DNA of 63,733 bases, taken from the IMG/VR virus record IMGVR_UViG_3300018083_000029, positions 1 to 63,733 of that record, one strand, 5' to 3'. Source of the DNA: a virus. The notes below the pieces were generated by a model. The model made no database searches. It worked only from the letters and a program-made list of their open reading frames with translations, and was not told the DNA's origin. Positions 3,253 through 44,146 of the stretch are shown one piece after another (within the stretch, counting starts at the first letter, position 1; each line of letters opens with the position of its first letter). Both the position numbers and the translations under genes were made by a program.

Positions 3253-4284
3253 ATGGCGTTTCCCAATCTTTCAGAAATCACGACTACTACCCTGCGTAAT
3301 CGCACAGGCGTATTACAGGATAACGTAAGTCGTAACAACGCACTTCTGATGAGGCTCAACCGTAAGGGTCGCATCAAGACTTTCTCTGGCGGTCGTACTA
3401 TTGTTCAGGAACTGAACTACGCCAACAATAGCACGTTCCTCTGGTATTCTGGTTATCAGACCTTAAACATCAATCCTTCGCAGGTGTTCACTGCGGCGGA
3501 GTATCCGATCCGTCAGGCTGCTCTGGCGATCTCTATTAGCGGACTTGAGGAGTTACAGAACTCTGGCGAGGAAGCTATTATTGATCTGTTAGAGGGTCGC
3601 GTCGAGAACGGCGAACAGACCTTCATGAACGGTCTCTCGAATGGTGTTTATGGTGACGGGTCTGTCACTGGTTCTATTGGTGGTCTACAGCTCCTTATCG
3701 CTGCTAGCCCTGCCACTGGTACTGTTGGTGGTATCGACCGTGCATCATGGCCGTTCTGGCGCAATATTAGCTTCTCCGCTCTGACTACTGGCGGTGCAGC
3801 AACATCGGAAGCGAATATCCTTAACTATATGAACCGTACTTGGGTTCAGGTTGTTCGTGGCCGTGACTTCCCTGATCTGATTGTCGCCGACAATAACATG
3901 TTCACTTTCTACATGCAGGCGTTACAGTCGATTCAGCGTATCCAGACTGAGAATGGCGCTCCCGATATGGCTGAGGCTGGTTTCCAGACTCTTAAGTATC
4001 TTAGCGCAGACGTGGTGTTGGATGGTGGATTCCAGGGTTTCGCGGGCGATCCGCTTCCCCCGGAATTATCTTCTAGCTCTAGTGCAGTTGGTGGTGTTCC
4101 GGCTTCTACAATGTATTTCTGCAATACAAACTATTTACATTGGAGGCCGCATAGCCAGAGAAATATGGTTCCTTTAGACCCGGATCGTTTCTCTGTAAAC
4201 CAAGATGCGATGGTTCGTCTGTTAGGCTGGGCTGGTAACGCCACTCTGTCTAACGCGTTCCTCCAGAGCACAATCACCACGTAA
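3253..4284 (+). CDS. Major capsid protein
   Basis: This 343-residue protein follows the scaffold with a 17-bp gap. Codon choice shifts towards strongly translated codons (many CGT, GGT, CTG), as expected for the most abundant virion protein. The N-terminal part (MAFPNLSEITTTTLRNRTG, then an arm with INPSQVFTAAEYPIRQAALAISISGLE) matches the HK97-fold coat proteins of podoviruses and related phages. The C-terminal part (YLHWRPHSQRNMVPLDPDRFSVNQDA) resembles the end of such coats. It would assemble around the scaffold to form the icosahedral head. Confidence 0.9.
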   Translation: MAFPNLSEITTTTLRNRTGVLQDNVSRNNALLMRLNRKGRIKTFSGGRTIVQELNYANNSTFLWYSGYQTLNINPSQVFTAAEYPIRQAALAISISGLEELQNSGEEAIIDLLEGRVENGEQTFMNGLSNGVYGDGSVTGSIGGLQLLIAASPATGTVGGIDRASWPFWRNISFSALTTGGAATSEANILNYMNRTWVQVVRGRDFPDLIVADNNMFTFYMQALQSIQRIQTENGAPDMAEAGFQTLKYLSADVVLDGGFQGFAGDPLPPELSSSSSAVGGVPASTMYFCNTNYLHWRPHSQRNMVPLDPDRFSVNQDAMVRLLGWAGNATLSNAFLQSTITT

Positions 4285-4311: not shown

Positions 4312-4953
4312 ATGACTATTCTTTCTCGGTGGTACACCATGGATAACAAGTTGGGGGTAAACCTCAACGTTGTTTCATCCTTTGGTCCCGTTAGTGTTTC
4401 TGACAGTGGTGACGCTCTTGCGTATCCTGATCCTATTGGATACATGCCAAAGCTTGGCGACCGCGTACAGGGTAATAACGGCTCTGAATGGATGTACGTT
4501 AAAGCCGGTTTGACAGTTACTGCGTTTAATGCAGTAGCTATTAACCCGAACTTTAGCGTACAGAACTTAGCCGCGTCGCTTATTACTTCTAACGCTTATA
4601 GCTATGGCGTTGCACAGTTCCAGCCGGTAAACGTATCTGTTGGTGCTGCTGGCGGTGGCGTTGCTAATGCTGGTGAGTTCTTCTGGGCGCTCCTGAAGGC
4701 TAATTCTGGCATTCGCATTAACGCAACTGGTACTAACTCTCCCGGAGATGGTCTGTATATCTCTATGACCAACTCTGGTCGTGTTGCTGGTGCTAGCTCG
4801 ATTGGTCTTATCGCAAGTGGCGGTAGGCTCAATGGACTTATGTTCCTTGGTAGCGTTTCTATCGACGCTATTACGGCTAGCTCGTCGGCTTCTGAGTTTG
4901 GTATGTTTAGCTACATTGCTCCCGCCGGTCAGTGGGCTGCAATCACTGTCTAA
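4312..4953 (+). CDS. Head decoration or minor capsid protein (putative)
   Basis: This 213-residue protein sits directly after the major capsid gene with its own AGG ribosome binding site, and codon use resembles that of the coat. It is rich in Ser, Thr, Ala and Gly with alternating hydrophobic beta-like segments (for example ASSIGLIASGGRLNG and ITASSSASEFG) and has no membrane segment or signal peptide. Genes at this position usually encode a decoration or head-stabilising protein. It lies directly upstream of three Maf-like glycosyltransferase genes, and its many Ser/Thr residues make it a candidate acceptor for sugar, which is inference only. Confidence 0.65.
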   Translation: MTILSRWYTMDNKLGVNLNVVSSFGPVSVSDSGDALAYPDPIGYMPKLGDRVQGNNGSEWMYVKAGLTVTAFNAVAINPNFSVQNLAASLITSNAYSYGVAQFQPVNVSVGAAGGGVANAGEFFWALLKANSGIRINATGTNSPGDGLYISMTNSGRVAGASSIGLIASGGRLNGLMFLGSVSIDAITASSSASEFGMFSYIAPAGQWAAITV

Positions 4954-4954
4954 C

Positions 4955-5878
4955 ATGAAAACGTACCAAGAAGTACAGGTAGAAGACAAGATCGCCAGAG
5001 TTTATCCTGGCGATTTTGTTAAATTACAAGACGTACAAACTAATGCGGCTACTCCATCTACTGTAGCTATTGAAAACATAAAGAAAAATTTAAAGTTAAA
5101 TCTACATAAATTAGAATTCTTACCCGAATTTAATAAAGTTAAAGGGCATAATGTCCCTATAGCTGTAGTTGGTGGCGGCCCATCCCTAAAGAATCACTTA
5201 GAAGAACTAAAGCAATTTAGGACTATTATTGCTTGTGGCTCTGTCCACGATTATTTAATATCTAATGGTATTATACCTACTTACGCTACTATATGCGATC
5301 CTGACAAAATAAGTCTCAATTACTTTAAAAACCCGCACACAGAAACAAAATATTTACTCTCAACTGGTGTGGATGAAAGTATTATTGAGCATTTTAAAGC
5401 CAACCATAATCAAATTATACTTTGGCACTGTCACAGTGCAGATTATGACGTTAAAGAAATAGAGAAATTAGAGGGCAGAGAGTATCAGGCCATCAGTGGT
5501 GGTTGCACAGTAGGCTTGAGGTCTATTAATATAGCTATAATGATGGGGTATAGTAACTTACATATTTTTGGCTTTGATAGTTCTATGAGTGATGAAGAGT
5601 GCCACGCATATAAAGTAAGTGAAGAAGAAAAAGACAGTTTTGGTAAAATATGGCAACTCAAACTAAGAGATTTAAAAAGGGATGATGGACAAGGTCCAGG
5701 GGATAAAGTATATAATTGCTTAGGGTATCAATTAGCTCAGGCTGATAACTTTAAGAACTTCTATTTTAGCTTTGGCAGGCTATTTACACCTACTTTTCAC
5801 GGAGATGGATTACTCCCTGATTTATTCCAACTAATGTTAGAGTCTATAGGGGCAGAAGTAGTGCCGGGGGCGGCATGA
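4955..5878 (+). CDS. DUF115 / Maf-like (MptE-like) protein, paralogue 1
   Basis: This 307-residue protein starts at ATG 4955, one base after the previous stop. It carries the DUF115 signature: GGGPSL at residues 73-78, a CDPD motif at 114-117, GGCTVGLRS followed by a helix, and FGFDS around Asp208. This family includes the bacterial motility accessory factors (Maf), which add pseudaminic or legionaminic acid to flagellin, and archaeal MptE, a pterin diphosphokinase. Two further paralogues follow (5875 and 7591). With a nonulosonic acid pathway elsewhere in the genome, a glycosyltransferase role is more likely than pterin metabolism. Placement inside the capsid operon suggests late expression and a virion-linked substrate. 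Confidence 0.8.
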   Translation: MKTYQEVQVEDKIARVYPGDFVKLQDVQTNAATPSTVAIENIKKNLKLNLHKLEFLPEFNKVKGHNVPIAVVGGGPSLKNHLEELKQFRTIIACGSVHDYLISNGIIPTYATICDPDKISLNYFKNPHTETKYLLSTGVDESIIEHFKANHNQIILWHCHSADYDVKEIEKLEGREYQAISGGCTVGLRSINIAIMMGYSNLHIFGFDSSMSDEECHAYKVSEEEKDSFGKIWQLKLRDLKRDDGQGPGDKVYNCLGYQLAQADNFKNFYFSFGRLFTPTFHGDGLLPDLFQLMLESIGAEVVPGAA

Positions 5879-6843
5879 TATTAGATATTCCACATCAAAA
5901 GCTAGATTTTCGTAGTTCTATGTTGGTCCCCTCTGGCCCACAGATGGACGAAGATGAATTTCAAAAATTAGAAGTAGTAAATACCCAAGCAGCTACTCCC
6001 TCTAGCATAACTAAACTCAAAATATTAGATAATTTAAAGCGAAATTTACCTACTTTGCACGGTATGCCAGAGTTCAAGCAAATAAAAAGTGAACCTATAG
6101 CTCTTATAGGGGGAGGGCCGTCTGTATCGAACTATATAGAGGAAATTAAAGGGTTTAAATACACTATCGCCTGTGGGTCTGCACATGACTTTTGCGTTAA
6201 GAACAATATTATTCCTACTTACGCTACTGCTTGCGATCCTGATCCAATTACAGCTAATTATTTGACTAAGCCTCAGATATGGACCAAGTATTTAATAGCT
6301 TCAGGCTGTGATAAGAAGGTATTTGACTATTTAAAAGGGTTCTCCACTTACATTTGGCACTGTCACAGCGACGATTATATGGATATGCGCGCACAAATGG
6401 GTGGCGAATATCAAGCAGTAGGTGGTGGTTGCACAGTTGGACTAAGATCACTATCTATAGCGCTTATGCTGGGGTATTGGGATATCCATTTTTATGGGTT
6501 TGACAGCTGTATGGGCGATAATTTAGAGCACCACGCGTATGATTTTAGTGATGAAACCGAGGAAATAGGGCAAATATACACAGTCAGATTCGGTAATGAG
6601 AAAAACTCATTTAAAGAAAAAGACTATAAATGCGCAGGCTATCAGTTAGCCCAAGCATCGCACTTTAAAGAGTTTTACTCTCAGTATTGTAACGTGTTTA
6701 AACCTACTTTTCACGGGGATGGGCTGCTCCCGGCTATGGTAAGACACATACAAAACGAAGAAGCCCGCTTAGGGCTCTCTAAAACGAACCAAATGGAGAA
6801 TTTAAGAGGGTTATTGAGCCAACCAGAAGGTACAAAGATATGA
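5875..6843 (+). CDS. DUF115 / Maf-like protein, paralogue 2
   Basis: This 322-residue protein overlaps the preceding paralogue by four bases (ATGA). It has the same signature motifs: GGGPSV from residue 79, a CDPDP motif, GGGCTVGLRS and FYGFDSC. Identity to paralogue 1 is clear along the whole length, including the shared endings TFHGDGLLP and CAGYQLAQA, so the pair arose by duplication and then diverged. It carries an extra N-terminal segment of about 20 residues. Expected activity is sugar transfer from a CMP-nonulosonate, as for bacterial Maf proteins. Divergent copies could recognise different acceptor proteins. Confidence 0.8.
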   Translation: MILDIPHQKLDFRSSMLVPSGPQMDEDEFQKLEVVNTQAATPSSITKLKILDNLKRNLPTLHGMPEFKQIKSEPIALIGGGPSVSNYIEEIKGFKYTIACGSAHDFCVKNNIIPTYATACDPDPITANYLTKPQIWTKYLIASGCDKKVFDYLKGFSTYIWHCHSDDYMDMRAQMGGEYQAVGGGCTVGLRSLSIALMLGYWDIHFYGFDSCMGDNLEHHAYDFSDETEEIGQIYTVRFGNEKNSFKEKDYKCAGYQLAQASHFKEFYSQYCNVFKPTFHGDGLLPAMVRHIQNEEARLGLSKTNQMENLRGLLSQPEGTKI

Positions 6844-7598
6844 ATGACTTCGCAGGACTAAACAAACCCCAAAGCATCAATTGGAACTCGGCGGCACGCG
6901 ACTACGGAATGGTGAGTTTCGGCAATGATAGCATGTTAAACGTGCTATTTTATACCCGAAGCGTGGTTAACGAGCAGAAATCTCGTGATATGGGTAAGCC
7001 GCACCATGATGCGGTGGAATTTGTGCGTATGCAGCAGCCTGGGGAGGCTTCTACAGTCATTGAGCGCCCTGTCCAGGAAGCAGATAAACATAGGTTCCCT
7101 CGTCAATATACGCTCTATCTTAACAAGAAAGAGCAAATCCCCGAGGGAACCCCTATTGAGTTGTTATTTCCCAATAGCCCTAACGTAGCTGACAATCTTA
7201 AGGGTTGGGGAGTATACACAGTTGAACAGTGTGCAGCTATGAGCCAGCACGCTATTCAGAATATCAATATGGGTGGACAGGACTATCAGAATAGGGCTAA
7301 GAGTTATCTGGAGAATGCGTCTAAAGGCGTTAATTTCCACAAGCAGATCAAAGAGCTTGAGGAAATGAAGTCTAAATATAACGTCCTTCAGCAGAACCAT
7401 AACACGCTCCAGCAGCAGTTTAGTGCTCTTATGGCTAAGTTGGAAGACCCCAACAAGAACGGGTTATCTCCCTCTTGGCAGCCTAACTATGACGCACAGG
7501 CCGAGCGATTAAACTCTAATCATCCTTCGCACGAAGTAGCACAAAAGAAGAAAACCAGAGCGACGACAGCTAAAGCAGAAGAGTTTGGCAGTGAATAA
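6840..7598 (+). CDS. Hypothetical structural-region protein with coiled coil
   Basis: This 252-residue protein is inserted between Maf-like paralogues 2 and 3, with an ATGA overlap on its left and the next start inside its end. The N-terminal 150 residues look globular and beta-rich (FYTRSVVNEQKSRDMGKPH, then FPRQYTLYLNKKEQIPEGTP). Residues 165-205 form a predicted coiled coil (KQIKELEEMKSKYNVLQQN), and the tail is basic. It is not recognised. Being locked into the Maf-like gene cluster suggests a virion or assembly protein, possibly a partner or target of the transferases. Confidence 0.75.
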   Translation: MNDFAGLNKPQSINWNSAARDYGMVSFGNDSMLNVLFYTRSVVNEQKSRDMGKPHHDAVEFVRMQQPGEASTVIERPVQEADKHRFPRQYTLYLNKKEQIPEGTPIELLFPNSPNVADNLKGWGVYTVEQCAAMSQHAIQNINMGGQDYQNRAKSYLENASKGVNFHKQIKELEEMKSKYNVLQQNHNTLQQQFSALMAKLEDPNKNGLSPSWQPNYDAQAERLNSNHPSHEVAQKKKTRATTAKAEEFGSE

Positions 7599-8400
7599 GT
7601 TAGACGGTGTCGAAACTGTTCTTGCAGTTAACACCGAAACACTAATAGACCAAATAACAAAAAATACACAACTAGGTCTCACAAACCTAGTTGATGCCCC
7701 TTTCTTTAGAGAAAGCAAGCAAATTGCGTTAGTTGGGGGAGGGCCGTCCTTGTCTAAATACTTGGACGAATTACGTGAGTTTAAAGGTCCAATAGTAGCC
7801 TGCGGGTCAGTACATGATTTTCTGGTTGAAAATGATATTAATATGGATTATTGTATTGTTTGCGACCCTGACCCTATTGTCATTGACTATATGAAGAAAA
7901 AGAACTACACAACTAGATATTTGGTAGCTTCGCAGTGTCATCCAGATGTATTTGAACATCTAAAATTTAGTAATACACATATATGGCACGCAGGCGGAGA
8001 TAACTTAGATATACTAAAAGCTTTTACGGGAGGTTCCGATGTTATCGGTGGTGGATGTACAGTTGGCTCACGGGCTATTATTATTTCTATGTGTCTCGGG
8101 TATAACGATATTTCCCTATTTGGATTTGACTCTAGTTTAAGTAAAGATTTTAAACATCACAGCTACGAGTTCCAAACTAACCAAGAAACTATCGGGAATA
8201 TCACCGAGATAAGATTAAACTCACCTGATGACGCAGAGGTGTTCCATTGTGCTGGATATCACGTAGCACAGCTATTCGACATTAAAAAGATTTTGGAGCT
8301 ATACGCGAGCCGTGTAAGGTTTAGAATCCGATGCGATGGTGCCTTGAGCCACCTGTTTAAACTAGGTATCGAAATATCCGCTCAGAAAAAGGAAACATAA
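7591..8400 (+). CDS. DUF115 / Maf-like protein, paralogue 3
   Basis: This is a 269-residue protein. I prefer the GTG at 7591, which overlaps the stop of the previous gene and has an AGAAGAG sequence at good spacing; TTG 7585 is an alternative. It carries GGGPSLSKY at residues 49-57, CDPDP, GGGCTVGSRA and FGFDSS, so it keeps the complete DUF115 signature, but it is shorter than the other two copies. The N-terminal extension before the nucleotide-binding motif is reduced. It is directly followed by the Ser/Thr-rich protein at 8402. Role as for paralogues 1 and 2. Confidence 0.78.
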   Translation: MNKLDGVETVLAVNTETLIDQITKNTQLGLTNLVDAPFFRESKQIALVGGGPSLSKYLDELREFKGPIVACGSVHDFLVENDINMDYCIVCDPDPIVIDYMKKKNYTTRYLVASQCHPDVFEHLKFSNTHIWHAGGDNLDILKAFTGGSDVIGGGCTVGSRAIIISMCLGYNDISLFGFDSSLSKDFKHHSYEFQTNQETIGNITEIRLNSPDDAEVFHCAGYHVAQLFDIKKILELYASRVRFRIRCDGALSHLFKLGIEISAQKKET

Positions 8401-8401
8401 T

Positions 8402-8845
8402 ATGGCTACCGCACAAAACCTTATGGCCTACGGCATGGCGAGCCCGCTTGCCCGTCGCATGGGCCGCACTCCCGTTATTACCTCTGCTTGTGGCGCTACG
8501 TCCGGTCTGGCCTCGCTTATTGGTGGCGCTCAGTATCTCACCCTAGTAACTATCACGGTCGGTGGCAGCTCGTCTGCGGGCCTCGTTCTGCCGCAGATTG
8601 GTGGACAGGTATCAGCTACTTCTGGCGCGCTTCTCGGTGATGATTTCTTTATTCAAAATAACACCGTCGGTTCTATTCTGATTTTCGCCGCGAATAACGC
8701 TCTCGGCAGCGCTGTTACGCTTTACGGTAATGCTGCGTCGGCGGCTGGCACAACTGGAATTTCAGCGCCTACTGGCCAGTCTGTGTTACTACGCCCAATT
8801 ACGGTTAGCACTTGGGTCTACATGAAGTCTATCGTCTCAGCGTAA
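8402..8845 (+). CDS. Small Ser/Gly/Ala-rich virion protein (putative head fibre or decoration)
   Basis: This 147-residue protein has a strong AAGGA ribosome binding site and GC-richer, translation-optimised codons like the major capsid gene, suggesting high expression. It is rich in Gly, Ala, Ser, Thr and Val, with beta-like segments (LTLVTITVGGSSSAGLVLP) and no signal peptide. It most likely decorates the capsid or forms small head fibres. It stands immediately after Maf-like paralogue 3, and its Ser/Thr-rich loops (TSGALLG, TTGISAPTGQS) make it a second candidate acceptor for glycosylation. Confidence 0.7.
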   Translation: MATAQNLMAYGMASPLARRMGRTPVITSACGATSGLASLIGGAQYLTLVTITVGGSSSAGLVLPQIGGQVSATSGALLGDDFFIQNNTVGSILIFAANNALGSAVTLYGNAASAAGTTGISAPTGQSVLLRPITVSTWVYMKSIVSA

Positions 8846-25533: not shown

Positions 25534-25551
25534 CAACGAAAGGAACACACA

Positions 25552-25779
25552 ATGACAGTTCTAGCACCGTTAATGGCCTTGCTTGTAGGTATCCCATCAG
25601 TATCAACAATTATCACATTGTTGATTCACATTTGCGTAATCGCACTTGTTGTCTTCTTGATTATTTGGGTACTTGAGCAGCTTGGTTTCTCTCTGCCCGC
25701 GCAAGTAGCTAAAATCTTATATGTCATAGCTATGCTGCTTGTAGTGCTTATGATCTTGCAAGCATTCGGGATCGCGTAA
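25552..25779 (+). CDS. Small two-helix membrane protein (Thivi_2564-like, holin-like size)
   Basis: ATG at 25552 follows an AAGGA site. The 75-residue product is almost entirely hydrophobic, with two predicted membrane helices separated by LEQLGFSLPAQ. The pattern of the second half, with LVVLMILQAFGI at the end, resembles the small Thivi_2564 family of bacterial membrane proteins. A holin role is possible from size and topology, but it lies between two tRNA genes, far from the endolysin. Function uncertain. Confidence 0.7.
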   Translation: MTVLAPLMALLVGIPSVSTIITLLIHICVIALVVFLIIWVLEQLGFSLPAQVAKILYVIAMLLVVLMILQAFGIA

Positions 25780-25784
25780 AAACA

Positions 25785-25862
25785 TGGCACGTAGCTTAGC
25801 CCGGTCAAAGCCGCCAGCTCATAACTGGCTGATCGCTGGTTCAAATCCAGCCGTGCCAACCA
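25785..25862 (+). tRNA. tRNA-Met (anticodon CAT)
   Basis: The acceptor stem is TGGCACG with CGTGCCA, the anticodon stem is GCCAG/CTGGC around CTCATAA (anticodon CAT), and the T arm is GCTGGTTCAAATCCAGC. Discriminator A and an encoded CCA end at 25862. An elongator Met tRNA is most likely. A tRNA-Ile2 whose CAT is modified to lysidine cannot be excluded from sequence alone. Confidence 0.93.
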
Positions 25863-32287: not shown

Positions 32288-32589
32288 TGACCATTGACTT
32301 ACATATTCTAGTGAGCATCGTTCAATTATTCTTGATAGCCATTGGTGGTATTGGTACAGTTTGGACATTAAAGTCTAAGCTAGATTTGTTAATCCAAGAG
32401 ACTTCTATTAAACATATAGCTAACGTAGAGAGATTTAAAGATATAGAGGATAAATTAGATACTCTGTCACACACAGCTGTTGAGATTGTAAAGCAAGAAG
32501 CTAGAATGAATAGTATAGATATTAGATTGCAAGAATTATCCAATAGGTTAGTAAGTGGTTTTAAGCGGCGCCCGACCTCTAGAGCTTAA
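32284..32589 (+). CDS. Membrane-anchored coiled-coil protein, spanin- or holin-like
   Basis: This 101-residue protein starts at GTG 32284 or ATG 32287. One N-terminal membrane helix (HILVSIVQLFLIAIGGIGTV) is followed by a long charged helix and a basic end. This resembles inner-membrane spanins or small DUF-type phage membrane proteins near lysis genes. Its end overlaps the convergent GNAT gene by 11 bp, with no terminator between them. Confidence 0.6.
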   Translation: MMTIDLHILVSIVQLFLIAIGGIGTVWTLKSKLDLLIQETSIKHIANVERFKDIEDKLDTLSHTAVEIVKQEARMNSIDIRLQELSNRLVSGFKRRPTSRA

Positions 32590-33019
32590 TATAAGTAATT
32601 TGTCCCTCCATTATATCAATAGTCTGCCACAAAAAACCATGTTTCTTAAAGAAGTTAATTGACTTATAGTTGTTAGGGTTGATATTAGCTTTAAAAATAC
32701 AGTCTGGGTACTCTTTTATTATAGTCTTTAAAGATTCTCCCCCATATCCTTTATTGTGATGTTCGTTTAATATAAATAATCCAATCTCATCAGTCTTAGA
32801 TATGTATATACTCCCCACCCGCATCATTCCATCATAAATAATAAACCATTCTTTATATGGTTTTAGCAGTACAAACTTCTCGTGATTAGCATAAGTGGGC
32901 ATCTTTTTATGCGATATAGACTGATGCGGCAGACGCTCGCCCAAGAGCCTATATAAAAACCTACAGTGTGAGTGTAGCACATTTGAGTCATCTGAGTACA
33001 CTGACGCTAATATAACCAT
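32579..33019 (-). CDS. GNAT N-acetyltransferase, PseH-like
   Basis: This 146-residue protein shows the GNAT order: RVGSIYISKTDEIGLFILNE, then NKGYGGESLKTIIKEY in the acetyl-CoA loop and helix, and YKSINFFKKHGFLWQ near the end. As the last gene of a nonulosonic acid operon it most likely N-acetylates the 4-amino sugar intermediate, as PseH does in pseudaminic acid synthesis. The long N-terminal segment (RFLYRLLGERLPHQSISHKK) is unusual for PseH and may bind the nucleotide-sugar. The assignment combines family features with context. Confidence 0.7.
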   Translation of the reverse strand: MVILASVYSDDSNVLHSHCRFLYRLLGERLPHQSISHKKMPTYANHEKFVLLKPYKEWFIIYDGMMRVGSIYISKTDEIGLFILNEHHNKGYGGESLKTIIKEYPDCIFKANINPNNYKSINFFKKHGFLWQTIDIMEGQITYIKL

Positions 33020-33020
33020 T

Positions 33021-33638
33021 TTAATGAGCCTTCTTAAAGAGCCAATAAGTTAGATTATCCAACCCTGTGACGCGCTTCCAAAAGAAACCATAATTTAGGC
33101 ATTGAAGCGGGAAATTATCTAAATACCAGCTACCAAAGTCCCGCATATAGAGCGCTTCATTCTGGCCTCTATATGGCTTAGTCTCGGGTTCTGGCCGAAA
33201 ATACTCTACACAGAAGACATATTTATTAGATAGCCTATAAATCTCCTTAGTGGTCTTTAATAAATCATCAGGGTGTACATGAATTAACACACCAGAAGTG
33301 AATACCATATCATATTTTTGTATTACGCTCTCTGTGCTGGGGTATATATCTGTAGCTATGTTTTGATCTAATAATCTTAACCTAGCTCTCTCATTAATTT
33401 CTACTGCGCCTATTAATACCTTCTCCTTTGCTATTTTATAGAGCGTATCTATGGCTTGGAGATTAATACCGTTGCCCGCGCCAACTTCCAAGATAGAGTG
33501 CGGTATGTCAGGGCCAAAAGTGTTTAATACAGTAGACCAAAACATAGTCCTGTGTTTTAAGTCTTGGTCAGTGATAGCGTTCCTCGCTGTGTAATCATCC
33601 CCAAACTGCCCTTCCCATAGTTCTTTTTGTTTGGTCAT
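33021..33638 (-). CDS. Pseudaminic acid biosynthesis-associated methyltransferase
   Basis: This 205-residue SAM-dependent methyltransferase has a glycine-rich motif I, ILEVGAGNGINLQAI, an acidic strand end AVEINE, and the N-terminal pattern KELWEGQFGDDYTARN typical of the TIGR03587 family that accompanies pseudaminic acid genes. It probably methylates the sugar or a derivative, altering the surface it decorates. It overlaps the cytidylyltransferase gene by 4 bp, in the same transcript. Confidence 0.82.
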   Translation of the reverse strand: MTKQKELWEGQFGDDYTARNAITDQDLKHRTMFWSTVLNTFGPDIPHSILEVGAGNGINLQAIDTLYKIAKEKVLIGAVEINERARLRLLDQNIATDIYPSTESVIQKYDMVFTSGVLIHVHPDDLLKTTKEIYRLSNKYVFCVEYFRPEPETKPYRGQNEALYMRDFGSWYLDNFPLQCLNYGFFWKRVTGLDNLTYWLFKKAH

Positions 33639-34363
33639 ACTGACACCTTTATGGGCTGCATTTTTATCGGCTCATGGCCCCACTTCCAGTCTGCGCTTAG
33701 TTTCTCTATTCGCTCTATATCCTCTGGATTGTCAACACAGAGATCAAGGTGTGATTTATTTTTATGCTGGGCGACACAAGCAGTATTTAATTTACTTAGG
33801 TTTTCAACCATCCAAGTTGTAACGTGCTCTTTTTGCTCGTCAGTGGTAGCTAACTGAAACGCTGCATCTAAACAATCATAAGTAAACGCTTCTGTATCAT
33901 AGCCTTTGGGGTATGTTCGCTTTGGATAACAGTTAGAGCAGTAATCTAATTTACGCCAAAGAAGCAGCTGTAGCACTTCACTGCTAACATAGGGGTTAAA
34001 ATATGGACAATCAGCAGTAATACGAAGAATAATATCCAAGTTAAAGCACCGAGCAGCAGAATGATATCGGGCCAACACATCGTTCTCATCGCCACAAAAA
34101 TTCTTAACACCTAGTTTCTCCGCTAGCTGGATCATAGGCTCACTGTCTTCTGTGTCGGGGACAGCGACTATGACATAATCTATGGGTATACCCTTCTCGC
34201 CTCTTATTTGCAGGGCGCGCTCTATGACGTGCTGAAGCACTGGTTTACCATTGAGCAAAGCCATGGATTTGCCAGGGAATCTTACACTAGTCATTCTCGC
34301 CTGGATAACCACACCTATTATTTGTTTCTTTTTGCGGGGGAGATATTTGATAACGTTATTCAT
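33635..34363 (-). CDS. SpsF/PseF-like cytidylyltransferase
   Basis: This 242-residue protein starts with the nucleotide-binding pattern VVIQARMTSVRFPGKSM (residues 18-34) of the SpsF/CMP-sugar synthetase family, followed by GKPVLQHVIERA and ITADCPYFNP. It should activate a nonulosonic acid with CTP to give the CMP-sugar that glycosyltransferases use. SpsF-type enzymes stand in for PseF or NeuA in several gene clusters. It overlaps both neighbours by 4 bp. The exact sugar is not readable from sequence. Confidence 0.85.
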   Translation of the reverse strand: MNNVIKYLPRKKKQIIGVVIQARMTSVRFPGKSMALLNGKPVLQHVIERALQIRGEKGIPIDYVIVAVPDTEDSEPMIQLAEKLGVKNFCGDENDVLARYHSAARCFNLDIILRITADCPYFNPYVSSEVLQLLLWRKLDYCSNCYPKRTYPKGYDTEAFTYDCLDAAFQLATTDEQKEHVTTWMVENLSKLNTACVAQHKNKSHLDLCVDNPEDIERIEKLSADWKWGHEPIKMQPIKVSV

Positions 34364-35073
34364 TCTATCCTCATATCAAAACCCTTGGATTTAAGATACT
34401 TCGCACAAGCTCTTGGGGTGATATCTTTATATAGGAACATTGAGCCCGCAGCGACAGCGTGCGCACCGTGTTTGAGTGCTTTCTCCATGTCTTCAGGGCC
34501 AGAGCACCCACCATTGACTATAACAGGGATATCCAGCGTATCACAAAGATAATAGAGTATATCTGTGTTGTACCCCTCCATAGTGCCGTCTTTACTCATG
34601 TCTGTTAATAGTATTTCTCCGGCCCCACTTCGTTCCAAACCTTTTGCATGTGTAATATAATCAATATATACATAGCCGGGATGTATATCTATAACAGAGA
34701 CAATAGCTTGACTGCCAAATTTTATGGCTGCTTTTTCCACTAACCAGTAGTTTGTCTTAATAGCTACTTTGTCAGCACCAGCAGAAAGGAGAGTATTAAT
34801 ATCACCCAAAGACCTAATACCGCCCCCGAGAGTAACAGGACAATAAAGCTCTTTAGTGTAATCTCTAATGCGTTCTGCATCTATTAATCTCCCTTCGTTA
34901 GTAGCTTCTATATCAAGGATAATAAGCTCATCTATGTTGCGCCGCTCCATTACCCTTATGTGCTGCATAAGCGAGCCTACGGTCCTATATGGCCGCTCAA
35001 ACTTTACAGGTTTGACCACGTTGCCTTTGCCGTCAGTTAATAATATAGGGATTATTCTGGTTTTGAGGGTCAC
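34360..35073 (-). CDS. HisF-like ammonia-channel partner of sugar amidotransferase
   Basis: This 237-residue TIM barrel resembles imidazole glycerol phosphate synthase subunit HisF: RIIPILLTDGKGNVVKPVKF at the start, GGIRSLGDI, GADKVAIKT, and IPVIVNGGCSGPED near the end. The Asp of HisF (IIPCLDV) that acts in histidine synthesis appears replaced by Leu/Thr here, as in surface-polysaccharide homologues (WbpG/HisF2/HisH2 systems). It sits directly after the amidotransferase with a 4-bp overlap. It likely channels ammonia to that enzyme. No HisH glutaminase gene was found. Confidence 0.85.
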   Translation of the reverse strand: MTLKTRIIPILLTDGKGNVVKPVKFERPYRTVGSLMQHIRVMERRNIDELIILDIEATNEGRLIDAERIRDYTKELYCPVTLGGGIRSLGDINTLLSAGADKVAIKTNYWLVEKAAIKFGSQAIVSVIDIHPGYVYIDYITHAKGLERSGAGEILLTDMSKDGTMEGYNTDILYYLCDTLDIPVIVNGGCSGPEDMEKALKHGAHAVAAGSMFLYKDITPRACAKYLKSKGFDMRIE

Positions 35074-36197
35074 AATAATCCTTTCCCTATTTCAAACTTG
35101 GGCATAGGTAAGTCCGTGTGGTTCCCAAAGGTAAACAGCTCTTTGTTTGTGAATCTCTTTATTACTTCTATATATTCTTCTATCGTACAATTAACTTGTC
35201 CGAGTATTTCTTCAAGACTGACTCCGAGATATGTACGTGGATACTGGCCGTCCCATGTGGCACAATGAGAGATACCCTCTGCTCTAGTAATTCTTTTCCG
35301 ACGAATGTGATTGTTAACGAGGTCAGTTGCTCTACCAAATCCGTATTTAACATATTTAAGATAATCTCTGAGCCCGGTCTGAAGGTTGTCAAGATTTTCA
35401 TAACCGTATCCGATCCCTTCGACGGGCTTTTCACTCCATCTGAATCCATGTTTCTGTGCCTCTACAGCGTTTTGATATCCATCCCAAGGAAAATAATATC
35501 CTAGAAATACTCCAGTAGGGTTCTTAAGCGCTCCACCATTGGGATATTTGTAAAAGTGTGCGCTGTCTTCCGGCAACAACCCTTGCTCTATGAGGTCACT
35601 TACCCGTAGGCCATTTAAACCGCCAAATTCGCTTAACCAGCGCTCGTTTAGGTTCCTGCTGGTCTGAGCAGCGGCGGGGCCACCGTACTCTGCTTGCGGG
35701 TTTTCGCCCCAGAGAACCATGGGCACGCTTAGCTTATGCGCAACATGAATTGGAACAGTAAATATAGTAACGTGTTCGGCATAAGAAATGTCGCCAATTT
35801 CCAACAATGCATGTTTAGCGATTCCATTTCTGACTCTGGAGTCCACAGATATAGAAATAACATCACAGCCAAGACGACTAATATTAGTAAGATTACGCTG
35901 CCCGAGGCTAGACAGAGAATCTGTAGTTGCGTTAACAGCCAGAACTTTAAGTCCATATTCTTTCGCCTTTATAATTTGGTAGTGGCTGTCTTTACCGCCA
36001 CTGACCGGGACAATGCAATCGTAGTCAAACTTCATTTGTTTGATTGCAAAGACCAGTTTCTCAAACTCGTTGGCTCGTTCTTTCCAGTCTATCTTATCTC
36101 GCTCTTTGAAAGCGATACAGGCTGCACAGAGTCCCTTCTTATCGAACCATATATCGGGTTTAGTGCTAGGATATAAGCACTCTTTGCAGTATTTCAT
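35070..36197 (-). CDS. N-acetyl sugar amidotransferase (PseA/WbpG-like)
   Basis: This 375-residue protein has four Cys (4, 7, 24 and 27) forming a zinc site, then a PP-loop ATPase motif, SGGKDS, at residues 66-71, and a C-terminal part with GISHCATWDGQYPRTYLG. This matches the N-acetyl sugar amidotransferases that convert an acetamido group to an acetamidino group using ammonia and ATP, as in pseudaminic acid amidination (PseA) or the WbpG system. Its partner HisF-like gene follows. The product would be an amidinated nonulosonic acid. Confidence 0.88.
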   Translation of the reverse strand: MKYCKECLYPSTKPDIWFDKKGLCAACIAFKERDKIDWKERANEFEKLVFAIKQMKFDYDCIVPVSGGKDSHYQIIKAKEYGLKVLAVNATTDSLSSLGQRNLTNISRLGCDVISISVDSRVRNGIAKHALLEIGDISYAEHVTIFTVPIHVAHKLSVPMVLWGENPQAEYGGPAAAQTSRNLNERWLSEFGGLNGLRVSDLIEQGLLPEDSAHFYKYPNGGALKNPTGVFLGYYFPWDGYQNAVEAQKHGFRWSEKPVEGIGYGYENLDNLQTGLRDYLKYVKYGFGRATDLVNNHIRRKRITRAEGISHCATWDGQYPRTYLGVSLEEILGQVNCTIEEYIEVIKRFTNKELFTFGNHTDLPMPKFEIGKGLL

Positions 36198-36478
36198 TTA
36201 TCCGTATTTGCCTTTGGAGTTTGCTCAGATTGTAACTGTTGTACAAGCCTAAACATTTCTTGTGAGAGTTTCAGAAACTCTTCATTCGGAAGAATGATCG
36301 TAGTTCTAGCTTTCTCTTGATAGAGCGGATCATCTTCTTTGAATAACTGCTCACAAAAAGCTATGCGCACAGCTCCCGGCATAGAAGTGAAGTAAAATTT
36401 ATTACTATAGATCGCGGGCTGATCTATAGCTATTTTAATCATTTCCTTGGTGATTTGGTATGGCTTAGGCTCAGTCAT
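36194..36478 (-). CDS. Small protein, possibly DUF3467-like
   Basis: I take ATG 36478 (94 residues) behind AAGGAGCC rather than the upstream frame extension. It contains PAIYSNKFYFTSMPGAVRIA and an RTTIILPNEEFLKLSQEM segment, a beta-strand plus helix pattern similar to DUF3467 small proteins. This comparison is tentative. It sits between the amidotransferase and the Acb2-like gene in the operon, overlapping both. Confidence 0.55.
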   Translation of the reverse strand: MTEPKPYQITKEMIKIAIDQPAIYSNKFYFTSMPGAVRIAFCEQLFKEDDPLYQEKARTTIILPNEEFLKLSQEMFRLVQQLQSEQTPKANTDK

Positions 36479-36806
36479 TGTTCGGCTCCTTATATTTATA
36501 GGCTCCATGAACTTCTGAAGGCGGTTGAGGCTTCACTGCTACATCTTCCGGCAGAGAGATTCTCTGGGGTTTAAATATAGCTCTATTCATGGCCATAAAG
36601 CCCTGTTGAAAGTGTGTCCTGGCAATGGCTAGCCAACGATGATCTAAGTATGCCTCGTTGATTTTATTCCATTCGTCTACTGCGCGCAGTAATCTTTCCT
36701 CGCGTTCTTTATTGGCGTCAACAAGCTCTTGAGTTACAGGCTTAACGTCTTTATACCCAAAGATAGGTGGCGCTTTGAATCCACCTTGTTCCTTTGCGTC
36801 AGTCAT
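36471..36806 (-). CDS. Acb2/Tad1-like hairpin protein (putative anti-CBASS/Thoeris sponge)
   Basis: I choose ATG 36806 with an AAGGAG site (111 residues). The C-terminal two thirds show the pattern of the Acb2/Tad1 hairpin family: a long helix (LVDANKEREERLLRAVDEWN), then HRWLAIARTHFQQGFMAMNR and AIFKP. Acb2 proteins form hexamers that bind cyclic nucleotides made by CBASS, and related Tad1 proteins bind the Thoeris signal molecule. If correct, the phage can blunt signalling-based host immunity. The family call is from pattern recognition only. Its position inside a sugar operon is unexpected. Confidence 0.65.
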   Translation of the reverse strand: MTDAKEQGGFKAPPIFGYKDVKPVTQELVDANKEREERLLRAVDEWNKINEAYLDHRWLAIARTHFQQGFMAMNRAIFKPQRISLPEDVAVKPQPPSEVHGAYKYKEPNND

Positions 36807-37815
36807 AGTACATATCTCCTTTGAGTGGTGTTCCTGCTTTGATGTTAGTCTTCGCAACCCTTCCAAGCACGTTCTTGTATTTGTAGGGCTCCATACCATA
36901 GCTAGGTCTTATGCTCCTTATGTTCTCTGGGGTTAACATTTCTCCTTCTTTGATATCTTTCACCACATAGAGTGACCTTCTAAACTGGCGAGAATCTTTC
37001 TCGGTGTCGTAGGGTGTTTTCTGGCCAGCGCTCCAAGCAGCTAGGCCCATCTTTTTGTAGTGCTCAAATTCCTCTGGGTATAAAGAGAACTCTTGATCTT
37101 CACTAGTCACTCCTAATGTGTCATTTTGAAAGTGCTTCTCGATTATCTTGGCGCCTTTGGCTACTGCGCCCAACATAGCTCCCATATCGTCGCAATGGTC
37201 TGAGAAGCCCACAACTATAGGATAGAAACCCTTTAAGAAATCTATTTTCCATAAATTAGCTTCATCTAAAGGATGTGGATATTTACTGACACAGTGCATT
37301 AAGCAAGAATTAGCTGGGTTAATAATAGATATAGCTCTATTTATCTCTTCTGGGGTGGCCGTGCCCGTAGAGAGTAATAACGGTTTACCCGTTTTAACTA
37401 CTTTGGTTATTAGCTCTGTATCGTTAAACTCAAAGCTAGCTATTTTGTAAGCTGGACAATGATTATATTCTAATCTTTGTAGACCATCCTCGCCAAATAC
37501 AGAAGCGAATAGGTTTATTTGATTAGTCTCGGCAAAGTCAAATAAGCTTTCCATCCAATCAAGAGGCGTTTGTGTCTTATAGTAGAGAGCATATAAATCT
37601 CTACCATCCCATGGGCCTCCTTTGGCTAGAAATCCATTGTTAGTTGTCATTTCATCGGGTGTGTAGCACTGTATTTTCACAGCGTCGGCGCCAGCCAGCT
37701 TAGCGGCTAACATAGTATCTTTGGCTCGCTCCAGTGAACCGCCATGGTTGCAGCTTATCTCGGCTACAAACAACGGGGGAGATTTTGGGGTTATTTCCTT
37801 GCCAAAGAGGTTCAC
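36799..37815 (-). CDS. NeuB-family nonulosonic acid synthase (PseI-like)
   Basis: I choose GTG 37815 with a GGGAGAG site (338 residues). The N-terminal TIM barrel carries FVAEISCNHGGSLERAK, AVKIQCYTPDEMT, LLLSTGTATPEEI and CVSKYP segments typical of NeuB/PseI/LegI synthases, and the C terminus holds a SAF (antifreeze-like) domain (IKEGEMLTPENIR, then GRVAKTNIKAGTPL). It condenses phosphoenolpyruvate with a six-carbon amino sugar to make the nine-carbon acid. The choice between pseudaminic and legionaminic product cannot be made from these motifs. It is the core enzyme of the operon. Confidence 0.9.
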   Translation of the reverse strand: MNLFGKEITPKSPPLFVAEISCNHGGSLERAKDTMLAAKLAGADAVKIQCYTPDEMTTNNGFLAKGGPWDGRDLYALYYKTQTPLDWMESLFDFAETNQINLFASVFGEDGLQRLEYNHCPAYKIASFEFNDTELITKVVKTGKPLLLSTGTATPEEINRAISIINPANSCLMHCVSKYPHPLDEANLWKIDFLKGFYPIVVGFSDHCDDMGAMLGAVAKGAKIIEKHFQNDTLGVTSEDQEFSLYPEEFEHYKKMGLAAWSAGQKTPYDTEKDSRQFRRSLYVVKDIKEGEMLTPENIRSIRPSYGMEPYKYKNVLGRVAKTNIKAGTPLKGDMYYD

Positions 37816-38051
37816 GGTAGTCTCTCCCACTGACAGCCAAATAGTAAATATTGCATCTTGCGCCAGAACCAATTGGGTACTTTTTGATCTTCTGTAAATT
37901 GTATGTAATAATTATCCCCCATGCCGAATAGCTTACACTTCCAAACGTATTTGGGCTGTGCAATAGAAACAAAGTCACCAGTCACAGGCGCATCTATTAA
38001 TTTAAATGTATTTTCTACTTCTGGAAATGTTACATCTTTATCTTCAGTCAT
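37812..38051 (-). CDS. Small hypothetical protein between PseC-like and PseI-like genes
   Basis: This 79-residue protein is aromatic (KYVWKCKLFGMGDNYYIQFT, NWFWRKMQYLLFGCQWERLP) and overlaps both neighbours by 4 bp. It is not recognised. It is clearly part of the operon by coupling. The high Trp/Tyr content suggests a compact domain that may support one of the flanking enzymes. Confidence 0.65.
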   Translation of the reverse strand: MTEDKDVTFPEVENTFKLIDAPVTGDFVSIAQPKYVWKCKLFGMGDNYYIQFTEDQKVPNWFWRKMQYLLFGCQWERLP

Positions 38052-38731
38052 TTGAATATCTCCAGCTTGCTCAAATCAGGATAATCATCGTTGGGAAGGT
38101 CTGGGTTATGTTTCTTCAGATAATATAACCTAGTTAAGCCCTCGGCGGCAATCTCCGGGCTCATATACATATGCCAGCCAAGCTCTTGTATGGGGTCATT
38201 CTTTGGCGCTATGCCTTCTGTGCGGCCATCGAAGCGTGCGCGCCTCGCCCAAATGTCAAAATGTGGATCGTTATGCAGAATTGCTCCGCCTTGCTGTATA
38301 CCTAGAATTTTAGACCAATGGAAAGAGACACATTCATATGTGAATGAATTACCAAATCTAGCTTTATTTCTCGCGAGCTTATATTGATCCCATGTAAATC
38401 TTCTGGCACTATCAAATACCTCAAAAGGTTTTAATTGATATGAGCCGATCCAATCTTCGTCCCTGAATAGTACATCAAAACCAGCGTGCTTTATTTGCAT
38501 GGGCACACTTAAATATGTGTATTTAGGTATTTCTACAGCGGTAGTTATTTGGTTGTAGTTCTTATTAAACTTAGATGGTTGCTCTATACCTATTCTACGC
38601 TCGTTATATTGGTATTTTAAGGCAAGAAAGAGAGCGTTGGTGCAACTGTTGACTGCCACACAATACGGTGCGCCTGTATACTCACTGACGGCAGACTCAA
38701 ATTTTCTGACAATCTCGAACGGATTTTCCAT
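38048..38731 (-). CDS. Short DegT/PseC-like aminotransferase
   Basis: This 227-residue protein has PLP aminotransferase features of the DegT family: VAVNSCTNALFLALKY (the substrate-entry turn), FDSAR with Asp107, and CVSFHWSKILGIQQGG with candidate Schiff-base Lys141. In PseC the enzyme adds an amino group to the 4-keto sugar made by PseB. Usual length is 370-400, so most of the C-terminal small domain is missing. Either this is a compact phage version or it needs a partner. It is intact by reading frame and coupled to the neighbouring genes. Confidence 0.78.
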   Translation of the reverse strand: MENPFEIVRKFESAVSEYTGAPYCVAVNSCTNALFLALKYQYNERRIGIEQPSKFNKNYNQITTAVEIPKYTYLSVPMQIKHAGFDVLFRDEDWIGSYQLKPFEVFDSARRFTWDQYKLARNKARFGNSFTYECVSFHWSKILGIQQGGAILHNDPHFDIWARRARFDGRTEGIAPKNDPIQELGWHMYMSPEIAAEGLTRLYYLKKHNPDLPNDDYPDLSKLEIFK

Positions 38732-38791
38732 TGCTGTTTCCAGTACCTTTGAATCTCTCTTGTCTTGTTGTGTGTTGTGTGCTTTCGGAGA

Positions 38792-38956
38792 TTAACTCCC
38801 GGATTCTTCATCCTGTGTACGTCTGGATGATTTGGCCATTTGTACGTTATATAGTTGGCTGATTGGTTTCTTCTTAGGACGGCCATCGGTTGCCCTCGGT
38901 TTATAGGTGTTATTGACTAGTTTGGCTCGGGGTCTGAGTTTTACTTTACGAGACAT
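38792..38956 (-). CDS. Small AT-hook-like basic protein
   Basis: ATG 38956 with a GGTGAG site gives 54 residues. The motif DGRPKKKPIS is an AT-hook-like DNA-minor-groove binding sequence in a very basic context (MSRKVKLRPRAKL). It lies in the sugar operon between the TM protein and the aminotransferase. It may bind DNA and regulate, or condense DNA. The overlap of 16 bp with the upstream gene supports a real gene. Confidence 0.6.
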   Translation of the reverse strand: MSRKVKLRPRAKLVNNTYKPRATDGRPKKKPISQLYNVQMAKSSRRTQDEESGS

Positions 38957-39135
38957 AGTGTTTTATACTCACCAATTATAACAACGCCACCACCTTTGGC
39001 TAAGCATTCAGCTCTATATTTGTATTCGTTCTGCCACCATATATCATTATAGTAGTGAGTTAGACCTATTAGTGTAATTAACACTAATAATACACTCACT
39101 ATTCCTATTATACATTCCCAACATTGGTGTGCCAT
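38941..39135 (-). CDS. Small single-span membrane protein
   Basis: I choose ATG 39135 with an AAGGA site (64 residues). One membrane helix, CIIGIVSVLLVLITLIGLTH, is followed by a short tail with several Tyr, Trp, Gly and Cys. It is part of the nonulosonic acid operon, directly after PseB. It may anchor or export something, but this cannot be seen from the sequence. Confidence 0.65.
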   Translation of the reverse strand: MAHQCWECIIGIVSVLLVLITLIGLTHYYNDIWWQNEYKYRAECLAKGGGVVIIGEYKTLCLVK

Positions 39136-39149
39136 AAGTGGTATATCCT

Positions 39150-40076
39150 TCACAGGTAGCCCATTTCCTTTAGTTCTGTCTTTATGTCCTTTACACTCAT
39201 CCACACGTTGTTCTCCCCACTGGACTTCGGCAGGGTCGAGATGTTGTATTTCTCGCATTCGTCCTCCGTAAAGAGGTTTTCGTGTATTTTCTCGCCTGGA
39301 CGTATGCCTGAGAATTGATACATATGCCCAAAGGCTTTAGCTAGCTCTAACACTCTAAAGCTTGGCATATTGGGGATAAATAACTCATTTCCTTGCATCT
39401 TATTAAGACTATTGAATGTGAACTCCACAGCTTCTTCTAGGCGCAACCAAAACCTAGTCATAGCTATATCGGTTATTTGCAATGGCTCGCCTTCTTTCTT
39501 TAATCGCGCAAATAAAGGAATAACAGAACCATTAGAACCGCACACATTACCATACCGGACAACGCTAAATTTAGGGCCATATTCGCCTCGGATATTGTTA
39601 GCGGCAAAGAACATTTTTTCCATACAGAGCTTAGTTGCACCATACAAATTAATAGGCATAACAGCTTTGTCGGTTGATAGCGCTATAACTTTGGGCCAGC
39701 CCGATGGCGCTATTGGACTATTCAAGCAACAGTCTATTAAATTCTGTGAGCCTAACACATTGGTTTTAATATACTCAAACGGTGAATATTCAGCGCTGGG
39801 GACTATCTTTAGCGCGGCAGCATGAATAATATGTGTTGCGTCATTGACTGCCATCTGTAACCTGTCTTTGTCCCGCACATCACCAAGCCAGAACCTTAGT
39901 CTAGAATCGTTAAATTTGTGTTGCATAAGCTCCTGTTTGTGCTCATCACGGGAGTATATACATATCTTGTCGTAAAAATATTTATGGCCATATTTTTCTA
40001 CAGTCTTATTTTTTAATAGGTATTCTACAGCCCCGTGACCAAATGATCCTGTGCCGCCTAATATTAATATATTCAT
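39150..40076 (-). CDS. pseB: UDP-GlcNAc 4,6-dehydratase (PseB-like)
   Basis: This 308-residue SDR-fold protein has a cofactor loop GGTGSFG (residues 7-13), HAAALKIVPSAEYSPFEYIK, STDKAVMPINLYGATK with the YxxxK pair Tyr145 and Lys149, and MTRFWLRLEEAV. These match the PseB/FlaA1 family that starts pseudaminic acid synthesis by oxidising and inverting UDP-GlcNAc. It is the first enzyme gene of the operon. PseB and FlaA1-type enzymes are hard to distinguish from C5-noninverting relatives by eye, but the context fits PseB. Confidence 0.88.
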   Translation of the reverse strand: MNILILGGTGSFGHGAVEYLLKNKTVEKYGHKYFYDKICIYSRDEHKQELMQHKFNDSRLRFWLGDVRDKDRLQMAVNDATHIIHAAALKIVPSAEYSPFEYIKTNVLGSQNLIDCCLNSPIAPSGWPKVIALSTDKAVMPINLYGATKLCMEKMFFAANNIRGEYGPKFSVVRYGNVCGSNGSVIPLFARLKKEGEPLQITDIAMTRFWLRLEEAVEFTFNSLNKMQGNELFIPNMPSFRVLELAKAFGHMYQFSGIRPGEKIHENLFTEDECEKYNISTLPKSSGENNVWMSVKDIKTELKEMGYL

Positions 40077-40246
40077 CTTTCTAATTTCCCAAAATTATTA
40101 ATTGCTTCTTGCATAGTCATCCACATTATTTTCATTCTTTCTATAAACATTTCTTTAGTTTCTAGTTTTGTATCCATAGATACAGACAGAGAGAATACTT
40201 CTTTAAATTCTTTGTCTCTGTGTATCCATCTAATTTCTTCTATCAT
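40073..40246 (-). CDS. Small hypothetical protein between regulator and PseB
   Basis: This 57-residue charged protein begins at 40246, overlapping the regulator stop, and its stop overlaps the PseB start (ATGA at 40073-40076). It starts MIEEIRWIHRDKEFKEVFSL and has many Met and Lys residues, likely helical. It was found because the chain of overlaps needs it. Function unknown. Confidence 0.65.
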   Translation of the reverse strand: MIEEIRWIHRDKEFKEVFSLSVSMDTKLETKEMFIERMKIMWMTMQEAINNFGKLER

Positions 40247-40503
40247 TTTTTAACTTTCTTCATTAACTCACTTATTGTTTCTTCTACGTTGTCGCTTAAC
40301 TCTATTTCCCCGCTTTCCTCTTTGAACCAATTGGATGCGGGCACTGCACCGCCTGTTATGCGCTCTATTCTTTTAGCCATGCGCCAACCCGGTGTCGCTT
40401 TGCCATTGGCAAGCATCCAGGGATAGCTATCGGAACAGGGCACAAGCTTCGCAAAAGCCTCGCTGGTGAGGCCATGGCTCTGTAGGTACTCCCGCAGCGT
40501 CAT
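40243..40503 (-). CDS. Small HTH regulator (Cro/YdaS-like)
   Basis: This 86-residue protein has an N-terminal helix-turn-helix (LREYLQSHGLTSEAFAKLVP) followed by TPGWRMAKRIERITGGAVPA, the recognition and anchor pattern of Cro/YdaS-like repressors. It is the promoter-proximal gene of the leftward sugar operon. Two palindromes lie just upstream (40530-40545 and 40547-40563) and could be its operators, so it probably controls its own operon. Confidence 0.8.
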   Translation of the reverse strand: MTLREYLQSHGLTSEAFAKLVPCSDSYPWMLANGKATPGWRMAKRIERITGGAVPASNWFKEESGEIELSDNVEETISELMKKVKK

Positions 40504-43111: not shown

Positions 43112-43289
43112 CGGGCCTCAAGTCAAGCTGCACAGCTAATATTTTGGCCTCGATGATCTGGGCAGGCAACCAATCAACGCAATCCAAATCAGGGATTGTA
43201 CCCTCGCGCGTGTCACGATAGTTGCGCAACGCGTCATTGATAATCTCAAGCTCACTGTCGGTGAACTGGAGTGTGAGTGTATCAGTCAT
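43098..43289 (-). CDS. Small hypothetical protein
   Basis: This 63-residue protein begins TDTLTLQFTDSELEIINDAL after ATG 43289 and ends EENV, directly overlapping the next ATG. Acidic and helical. Its start junction is identical to that of the gene before it, so the two were probably copied as a unit of ribosome binding site plus start. Confidence 0.65.
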   Translation of the reverse strand: MTDTLTLQFTDSELEIINDALRNYRDTREGTIPDLDCVDWLPAQIIEAKILAVQLDLRPEENV

Positions 43290-43302
43290 CACACGTTCTC
43301 CT
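43285..43302 (-). repeat. 18-bp stop/start junction repeat, copy 2
   Basis: Second copy of the ribosome-binding and start junction, at the boundary between the 277-residue gene and the 63-residue gene. Both flanking upstream genes end in the residues ENV because of this shared sequence. Confidence 0.75.
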
Positions 43303-44122: not shown

Positions 44123-44146
44123 GGCGCGTGCTCCAGCTTGATTGAG

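Follow-up and report, generated by a model that had tools for sequence, protein, structure and literature searches.

Introduction

Pseudaminic acid activated with cytidine monophosphate (CMP) is made in Campylobacter and Clostridium by the PseB-C-H-G-I-F pathway, together with PseA (PMC13317340). Maf proteins transfer CMP-pseudaminic acid (CMP-Pse) or CMP-legionaminic acid (CMP-Leg), and PseA and methyltransferases are encoded in the same loci (PMC13317340). Flagellin is modified by bacterial Maf while still in the cytoplasm and not yet exported (PMC4065374). Phage genes that act on pseudaminic acid are known as well: the prophage genes epaA and epaB convert it to 8-epipseudaminic acid (PMC12053666). 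This two-gene pair was the nearest phage precedent in a literature search that found no paper on a phage cassette for synthesis, with subscription papers and preprints largely outside the search. In this study, we analysed, from its sequence, a 63,733-base virus record (IMG/VR record IMGVR_UViG_3300018083_000029; this whole stretch is called the window). It carries a minus-strand (leftward) run of predicted nonulosonic (sialic-acid-like) acid genes at 40076-32579, called the cassette.

By curated models, the cassette has PseB, PseI, PseA/WbuX, and the associated methylase in common with the bacterial pathway, and the aminotransferase, acetyltransferase, and CMP-transferase families are also present. 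It differs in having no PseG, a viral enzyme of about 200 amino acids (aa) for PseC, SpsF for PseF in the window phage, and an added HisF partner, and in being phage-borne. Distinct from the epaA/epaB pair, which tailors the host capsule and includes no synthesis pathway (PMC12053666), it holds a set of synthesis genes. We consider it reasonably probable that the window encodes the synthesis of a pseudaminic-type nonulosonic acid, amidinated and probably methylated, along with phage transferases that attach this sugar to the phage's own virion proteins. The broader proposal, toward which we lean only slightly, is that uncultured tailed phages of several lineages use a largely self-contained pathway, including a virus-specific miniature aminotransferase and dedicated sialyltransferase-like enzymes of their own, to cover their particles with a pseudaminic-type acid that is both amidinated and methylated.

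Results

Cassette enzymes

An earlier note on this DNA, made without database searches, had described a coupled leftward operon encoding a PseB-like dehydratase, a DegT/PseC-like aminotransferase, a NeuB/PseI-like synthase, an SpsF/PseF-like cytidylyltransferase, a PseA/WbpG-like amidotransferase with a HisF-like partner, a TIGR03587-type methylase, and a PseH-like GNAT. All of these genes are present in the claimed place and on the minus strand (Table 1). Many overlap their neighbours by a few bases, and such start/stop overlaps are typical of coupled translation. Promoter and terminator scans gave no usable result.

The enzyme families are well supported, and searches with curated models and solved structures agree for PseB, PseI, the amidotransferase, and the cytidylyltransferase. 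The dehydratase scored 349 bits with the PseB model (equivalog cut-off, 408), the runner-up being FnlA (187 bits), and its best solved structure was FlaA1/PseB 2gn4 (271 bits, E=1.8e-79). The synthase matched PF03102 (2.6e-59) and scored 332 bits with the PseI model (cut-off, 340) versus 208 bits with the NeuB model; its best PDB match was PseI 8h2c (240 bits, E=3e-70), with NeuB structures at about 143 bits. Both enzymes thus lie somewhat below the equivalog cut-offs, yet far above the alternative models, and sequence comparison supports ranking PseB above FnlA and LegB, and PseI above NeuB. The PseI of a relative from a second cassette lineage (L115) reached 372 bits, above the equivalog cut-off.

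The amidotransferase passed its curated cut-off (292 versus 203 bits; PDB 8wex, E=7.7e-26), and its SGGKDS (PP-loop) motif is kept in 46/46 complete cassettes. For the HisF partner, WbuZ was the top model (177 bits; cut-off, 300), followed by AglZ/HisF2 (174 bits), both below the equivalog cut-offs. The cytidylyltransferase is SpsF/KdsB-like; the SpsF part of its earlier label was borne out, and the PseF part was not (18 bits only with the PseF model). In the second lineage, at least two members (L115 and L145) have a PseF-type enzyme (185 bits; cut-off, 206) where the window has SpsF, and the occurrence of either type in the same slot fits a required CMP-activation step. The methylase exceeded its curated cut-off. 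The GNAT family match held but is generic, and the putative PseH role comes from context. The searches set as a check in the note placed the synthase, cytidylyltransferase, and amidotransferase in the claimed families. With the PseB and PseI rankings and two further enzymes above curated cut-offs, the genes are best read as a cassette for a pseudaminic-type nonulosonic acid, in agreement with the note.

Miniature aminotransferase

The DegT part of the label DegT/PseC-like stood, as the enzyme has the DegT family domain and the catalytic Asp and Lys. Compared with PseC, it is shorter (227 versus about 380 aa), lacks the C-terminal domain, and scored 32 bits with the PseC model (cut-off, 424). 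Its viral homologues typically have 197-230 aa. Asp107, Ser136, and Lys141, which are expected to hold pyridoxal phosphate (PLP), are invariant in an alignment of 121 viral homologues. Foldseek aligned the AlphaFold2 model (predicted local distance difference test score, 93) with sugar aminotransferases over their large domain; PseC 2fnu (E=3.9e-9) was among the matches. When 84,980 bacterial and archaeal genomes were scanned with a pattern, one partial, ordinary match was obtained, and cultured phages gave seven weak matches; the miniature enzyme looks virus-specific. It is also found in many phages (viral contigs L023-L084) in which the other cassette genes are missing, in some cases close to a gene for a PseB-like protein or a GNAT; a further role in other sugar pathways is therefore probable.

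Recurrence in viruses

No relative of the amidotransferase was found in 50,697 cultured-phage records, which held only three distant synthase relatives, and the eight-gene set was found in no cultured phage searched. A single-sequence PseI scan of viral contigs gave no match; the scans that worked used alignments of the aminotransferase and amidotransferase. Among pattern-matched IMG/VR stretches, 110 encode a relative of the amidotransferase and 334 a relative of the aminotransferase. In the fetched IMG/VR contigs, after removal of repeats, all eight families occur in 46 distinct contigs and at least five of the eight in 65. The rarity in phages stated in the earlier note is therefore true of cultured phages and not of uncultured ones.

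The genes lie on one strand in 64 of the 65 contigs with at least five of them, and many cassette contigs also carry terminase and portal genes. The commonest order (26 contigs) is PseB, aminotransferase, cytidylyltransferase, methylase, WbuX, HisF, GNAT, and PseI; the window's order was found in five contigs. Since the order differs between lineages while the content is the same, the set appears to be selected as a unit rather than simply inherited as one block.

Maf/PseD-like genes beside the capsid gene

Three Maf/PseD-like genes at 4955-8400, downstream of the major capsid protein gene, fall outside the interval of the earlier note and were missed there. Their family, PF01973, is named in Pfam after pterin kinases (pterin pyrophosphokinases), and the Maf proteins, which transfer nonulosonic acids to flagellin, belong to it too. 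A profile of the phage PF01973 family matched Maf 5mu5 at 7e-12 and archaeal pterin kinase 8sd5 at 2e-5, and the NCBIfam PseD model matched 5 of 13 members. By these comparisons, the window's Maf1-3 appear closer to Maf than to the pterin kinase. The full-length PseD architecture (NF050051) scored 36 bits against a cut-off of 670, the core domain only being present. The phage proteins share with the flagellin glycosyltransferases (PMC4065374; PDB 5mu5) the PF01973 domain, the PseD match, and nonulosonic acid genes in the same genome. Unlike them, they are cores of about 270-320 aa without the other Maf regions, and lie beside the capsid gene, not flagellin genes.

The order capsid protein, structural protein, Maf, coiled-coil-like protein, Maf, Ser/Thr-rich protein, and tail protein is conserved in relatives, and a Maf gene directly abuts PseB in two other cassette contigs (G028 and G013). 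The Ser/Thr-rich protein may be an acceptor. With the capsid proteins of Bradyrhizobium phage ppBjS10J-1, Myxococcus phage Mx8, and Stenotrophomonas phage BUCT555, the window's capsid protein shares 45-54% identity, which may hint at lineage, not at host.

A second transferase-like family

Most of the remaining cassette phages carry, instead of Maf, a second transferase-like family with no Pfam or PHROG match. Its gene lies downstream of the cassette, just before TerL, and often after a small Ser/Thr-rich protein. The closest solved fold to its predicted fold is CstII of the GT42 sialyltransferases (best PDB match 1.2e-5). CstII is a CMP-sialic-acid-using transferase. Distinct from GT42, the second family occurs in uncultured phages beside the cassette and terminase. 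Its alignment was at first too diverse for a scan, and a narrower alignment was used.

Association of the transferases with the cassette

Among 44 cassette records, PF01973 was found in 11, the second family in 33, and at least one of them in 41; the three with neither are 21-34 kb long. Neither family occurred in 35 controls, which were records with the miniature aminotransferase but without the cassette (0/35 versus 41/44; Fisher p=3e-19). With the second family as bait, 30 loci had an upstream flank of 6 kb or more, and PseI or WbuX was present in 28 of them; of the eight contigs that were new to the data set, six carried PseI or WbuX. In the 38 contigs of the window's capsid lineage, all four NeuB-positive contigs were PF01973-positive. 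All eight cassette-positive genomes longer than 50 kb with the window-type head module carry PF01973, against none of the four NeuB-negative contigs longer than 50 kb (p=0.002); the comparison was made partly after the fact, since the capsid scan had supplied just three of the eight. The association is strong but not exclusive. The linked Maf-like and sialyltransferase-like genes suggest what the sugar is for.

Other features of the window and its relatives

The window also encodes a portal protein, primase, DNA polymerase, ribonucleotide reductase, tail proteins, and terminase. Inside the operon, an Acb2/Tad1-hairpin protein is encoded between the PseI and WbuX genes, and similar proteins occur in three related loci. 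The family includes phage anti-CBASS/anti-Thoeris cyclic-nucleotide sponges, and this protein probably has no part in making the sugar. Two tRNA genes, Leu(taa) and Met(cat), lie at 25449-25862 (+). An AAA-type ATPase at 43289-45565 (-), beside a DUF7192 protein, matches a PHROG named porphyrin biosynthesis. In a 92-kb relative (L003), an eight-repeat array resembling clustered regularly interspaced short palindromic repeats (5589-6060; 61-base period, repeat of about 29 bases) lies just upstream of the cassette and adjoins a gene that is TnpB-like by eye.

Table 1. Features of the window, with positions, strands, and supporting matches.
Feature	Position	Strand	Evidence or remark
PseB-like UDP-GlcNAc 4,6-dehydratase (inverting)	39150..40076	-	TIGR03589; PDB 2gn4
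Miniature DegT/PseC-like PLP sugar aminotransferase, large domain only	38048..38731	-	PF01041 6.5e-15
PseI-like nonulosonic acid synthase (NeuB + SAF domains), GTG start	36799..37815	-	PF03102; TIGR03586; PDB 8h2c
PseA/WbuX/WbpG-like N-acetyl sugar amidotransferase	35070..36197	-	TIGR03573; SGGKDS; PDB 8wex
HisF/WbuZ-like amidination partner	34360..35073	-	WbuZ model
SpsF-type cytidylyltransferase (CMP activation)	33635..34363	-	PF02348 1.4e-18; PDB 6oew E=3.8e-27
Pseudaminic-acid-associated methylase	33021..33638	-	TIGR03587, 133 bits (cut-off 112)
GNAT N-acetyltransferase, candidate PseH	32579..33019	-	PF00583 6.3e-7
Major capsid protein, candidate acceptor or landmark	3253..4284	+	phrog_9953 4e-104
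Structural-module protein between capsid protein and Maf1	4312..4953	+	Syntenic in L162, L163, L168, L170
Maf1, Maf/PseD-like glycosyltransferase	4955..5878	+	PF01973 7.6e-26; PDB 5mu5 Maf 7e-6; NCBIfam FlagModPseD 3e-9
Maf2, Maf/PseD-like glycosyltransferase	5875..6843	+	PF01973 4e-18
Maf3, Maf/PseD-like glycosyltransferase	7585..8400	+	PF01973 2e-21
Small Ser/Thr-rich (22%) structural-module protein after Maf3	8402..8845	+	Homologues at the same place in L161, L164, L166, L172
Small protein 5' of the operon, possible Cro/YdaS-like regulator by eye	40243..40503	-	Similar-looking family 5' of the cassette in five relatives
Small open reading frame, 79 aa	37812..38051	-	4-bp overlap with both neighbours; no Pfam match
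Acb2/Tad1-hairpin-domain protein	36471..36806	-	PF24729 5.9e-15
Open reading frame, 104 aa	36194..36508	-	No Pfam, NCBIfam, or PHROG match

Discussion

In the pathway that we propose, PseB would dehydrate uridine diphosphate (UDP)-GlcNAc, the miniature PLP enzyme would then aminate C4, and the GNAT would acetylate the product. After an unidentified or host hydrolase takes off UDP, PseI would condense the product with phosphoenolpyruvate, and the SpsF enzyme would form the CMP-sugar. WbuX and HisF may convert an N-acetyl group to an acetamidino group, and the TIGR03587 enzyme may add a methyl group. In the host cytoplasm, the Maf/PseD-like proteins would next attach the sugar by O-glycosylation to a head or decoration protein, much as Maf modifies flagellin in bacteria; a phage head protein is made in the cytoplasm and so would be accessible to Maf-type enzymes. 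In other cassette lineages, the GT42-like-fold protein, which has no clear sequence similarity to Maf, would take the transferase slot. The benefit might be, for example, shielding or altered adsorption. Family membership, the kept catalytic residues, recurrence, linkage, and the co-occurrence with transferases are what the computation shows; which sugar is made, its amidination and methylation, the protein that accepts it, its presence on virions, and any gain from it are inferred.

Several observations weigh against this proposal. PseG, the UDP-sugar hydrolase, was found in 0/35 cassette records, the window included, while control genomes were positive, which leaves the pathway incomplete as read, with a gap at UDP hydrolysis. 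The near-complete pathway claimed in the earlier note is right as to the eight families, and the note missed this gap, which either the host or an unrecognised enzyme would fill. No HisH-like glutaminase partner of HisF was recognised in the operon, and no acceptor protein for the sugar was identified. PF01973 also covers pterin pyrophosphokinases. The 35 controls were drawn from other phage lineages, and in the window's own capsid lineage 16 of 34 NeuB-negative contigs, many of them short fragments, carry PF01973 proteins; these 16 are pieces of 23-41 kb, and the four NeuB-negative contigs longer than 50 kb are all without PF01973. The likeness of the second family to GT42 is one of fold (template modelling score about 0.4), with no sequence match found. 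Profile comparison of the Maf-like and second families gave a weak local match, and common ancestry is not claimed.

Genes conserved within the cassettes were examined for one that could stand in for PseG; they yielded only small families, of about 105 and 171 aa, and neither matched Pfam or PHROG significantly. The former (for example, L126 9031-9342 and L149 2777-3097) lies between the miniature aminotransferase and the cytidylyltransferase, with profile matches in 42 loci.

The sugar might instead alter the host capsule, lipopolysaccharide, or flagella and bring a superinfection block or a serotype change. The targets of bacterial Maf are flagellins (PMC4065374), and the known prophage pair epimerises pseudaminic acid on the host capsule (PMC12053666). 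We nevertheless regard host-surface modification as unlikely: the transferase genes lie among head genes by the capsid gene, or between a Ser/Thr-rich protein and TerL, and not with envelope genes; a near-whole pathway is present, not a tailoring pair; and among those window genes that were examined, we noticed no integrase. Less likely still, the Maf-like and GT42-like proteins would be pterin kinase-like or other Rossmann enzymes unrelated to the cassette, whose product would have another fate. The pterin pyrophosphokinases in PF01973, the profile match to 8sd5 (2e-5), and the 16 same-lineage contigs with PF01973 but without NeuB would fit such an account; the association in both directions (41/44 versus 0/35, and 28/30), the direct adjacency of Maf and PseB in two contigs, and the stronger match to Maf and PseD argue against it.

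Phages are known to modify DNA with sugars, and an Acb2/Tad1-hairpin protein is encoded within the operon, so that a sugar put on phage DNA, or a free small molecule directed against host defence, was also considered. Either seems very unlikely, as no hydroxymethyl-pyrimidine or DNA glycosyltransferase gene was noticed, transferases of such fold act on glycans or proteins, and the DNA replication genes are located elsewhere in the window than the cassette. Finally, the cassette families are common in bacterial flagellar and lipopolysaccharide loci, and such a surface-sugar locus could have been misassembled into a viral contig. This we judge hardly credible: the G+C content of the operon is close to that of its surroundings, phage genes lie on both flanks, the same set recurs in 46 contigs, of which many also encode a terminase and a portal protein, and the aminotransferase is apparently virus-specific. 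Contamination was rejected on recurrence, flanking phage genes, and composition.

If self-decoration of the virion is the right reading, phages would both produce sialic-acid-like sugars and carry them on their particles, much like some bacteria that bear them on flagella. A gene set widespread in uncultured phages would thereby be accounted for, glycan enzymology would gain a useful family of PLP aminotransferases of about 200 residues, and two transferase families would be named for testing. Such sugars would represent a new layer of virion biology, relevant to how particles adsorb, how stable they are, and how they are recognised.

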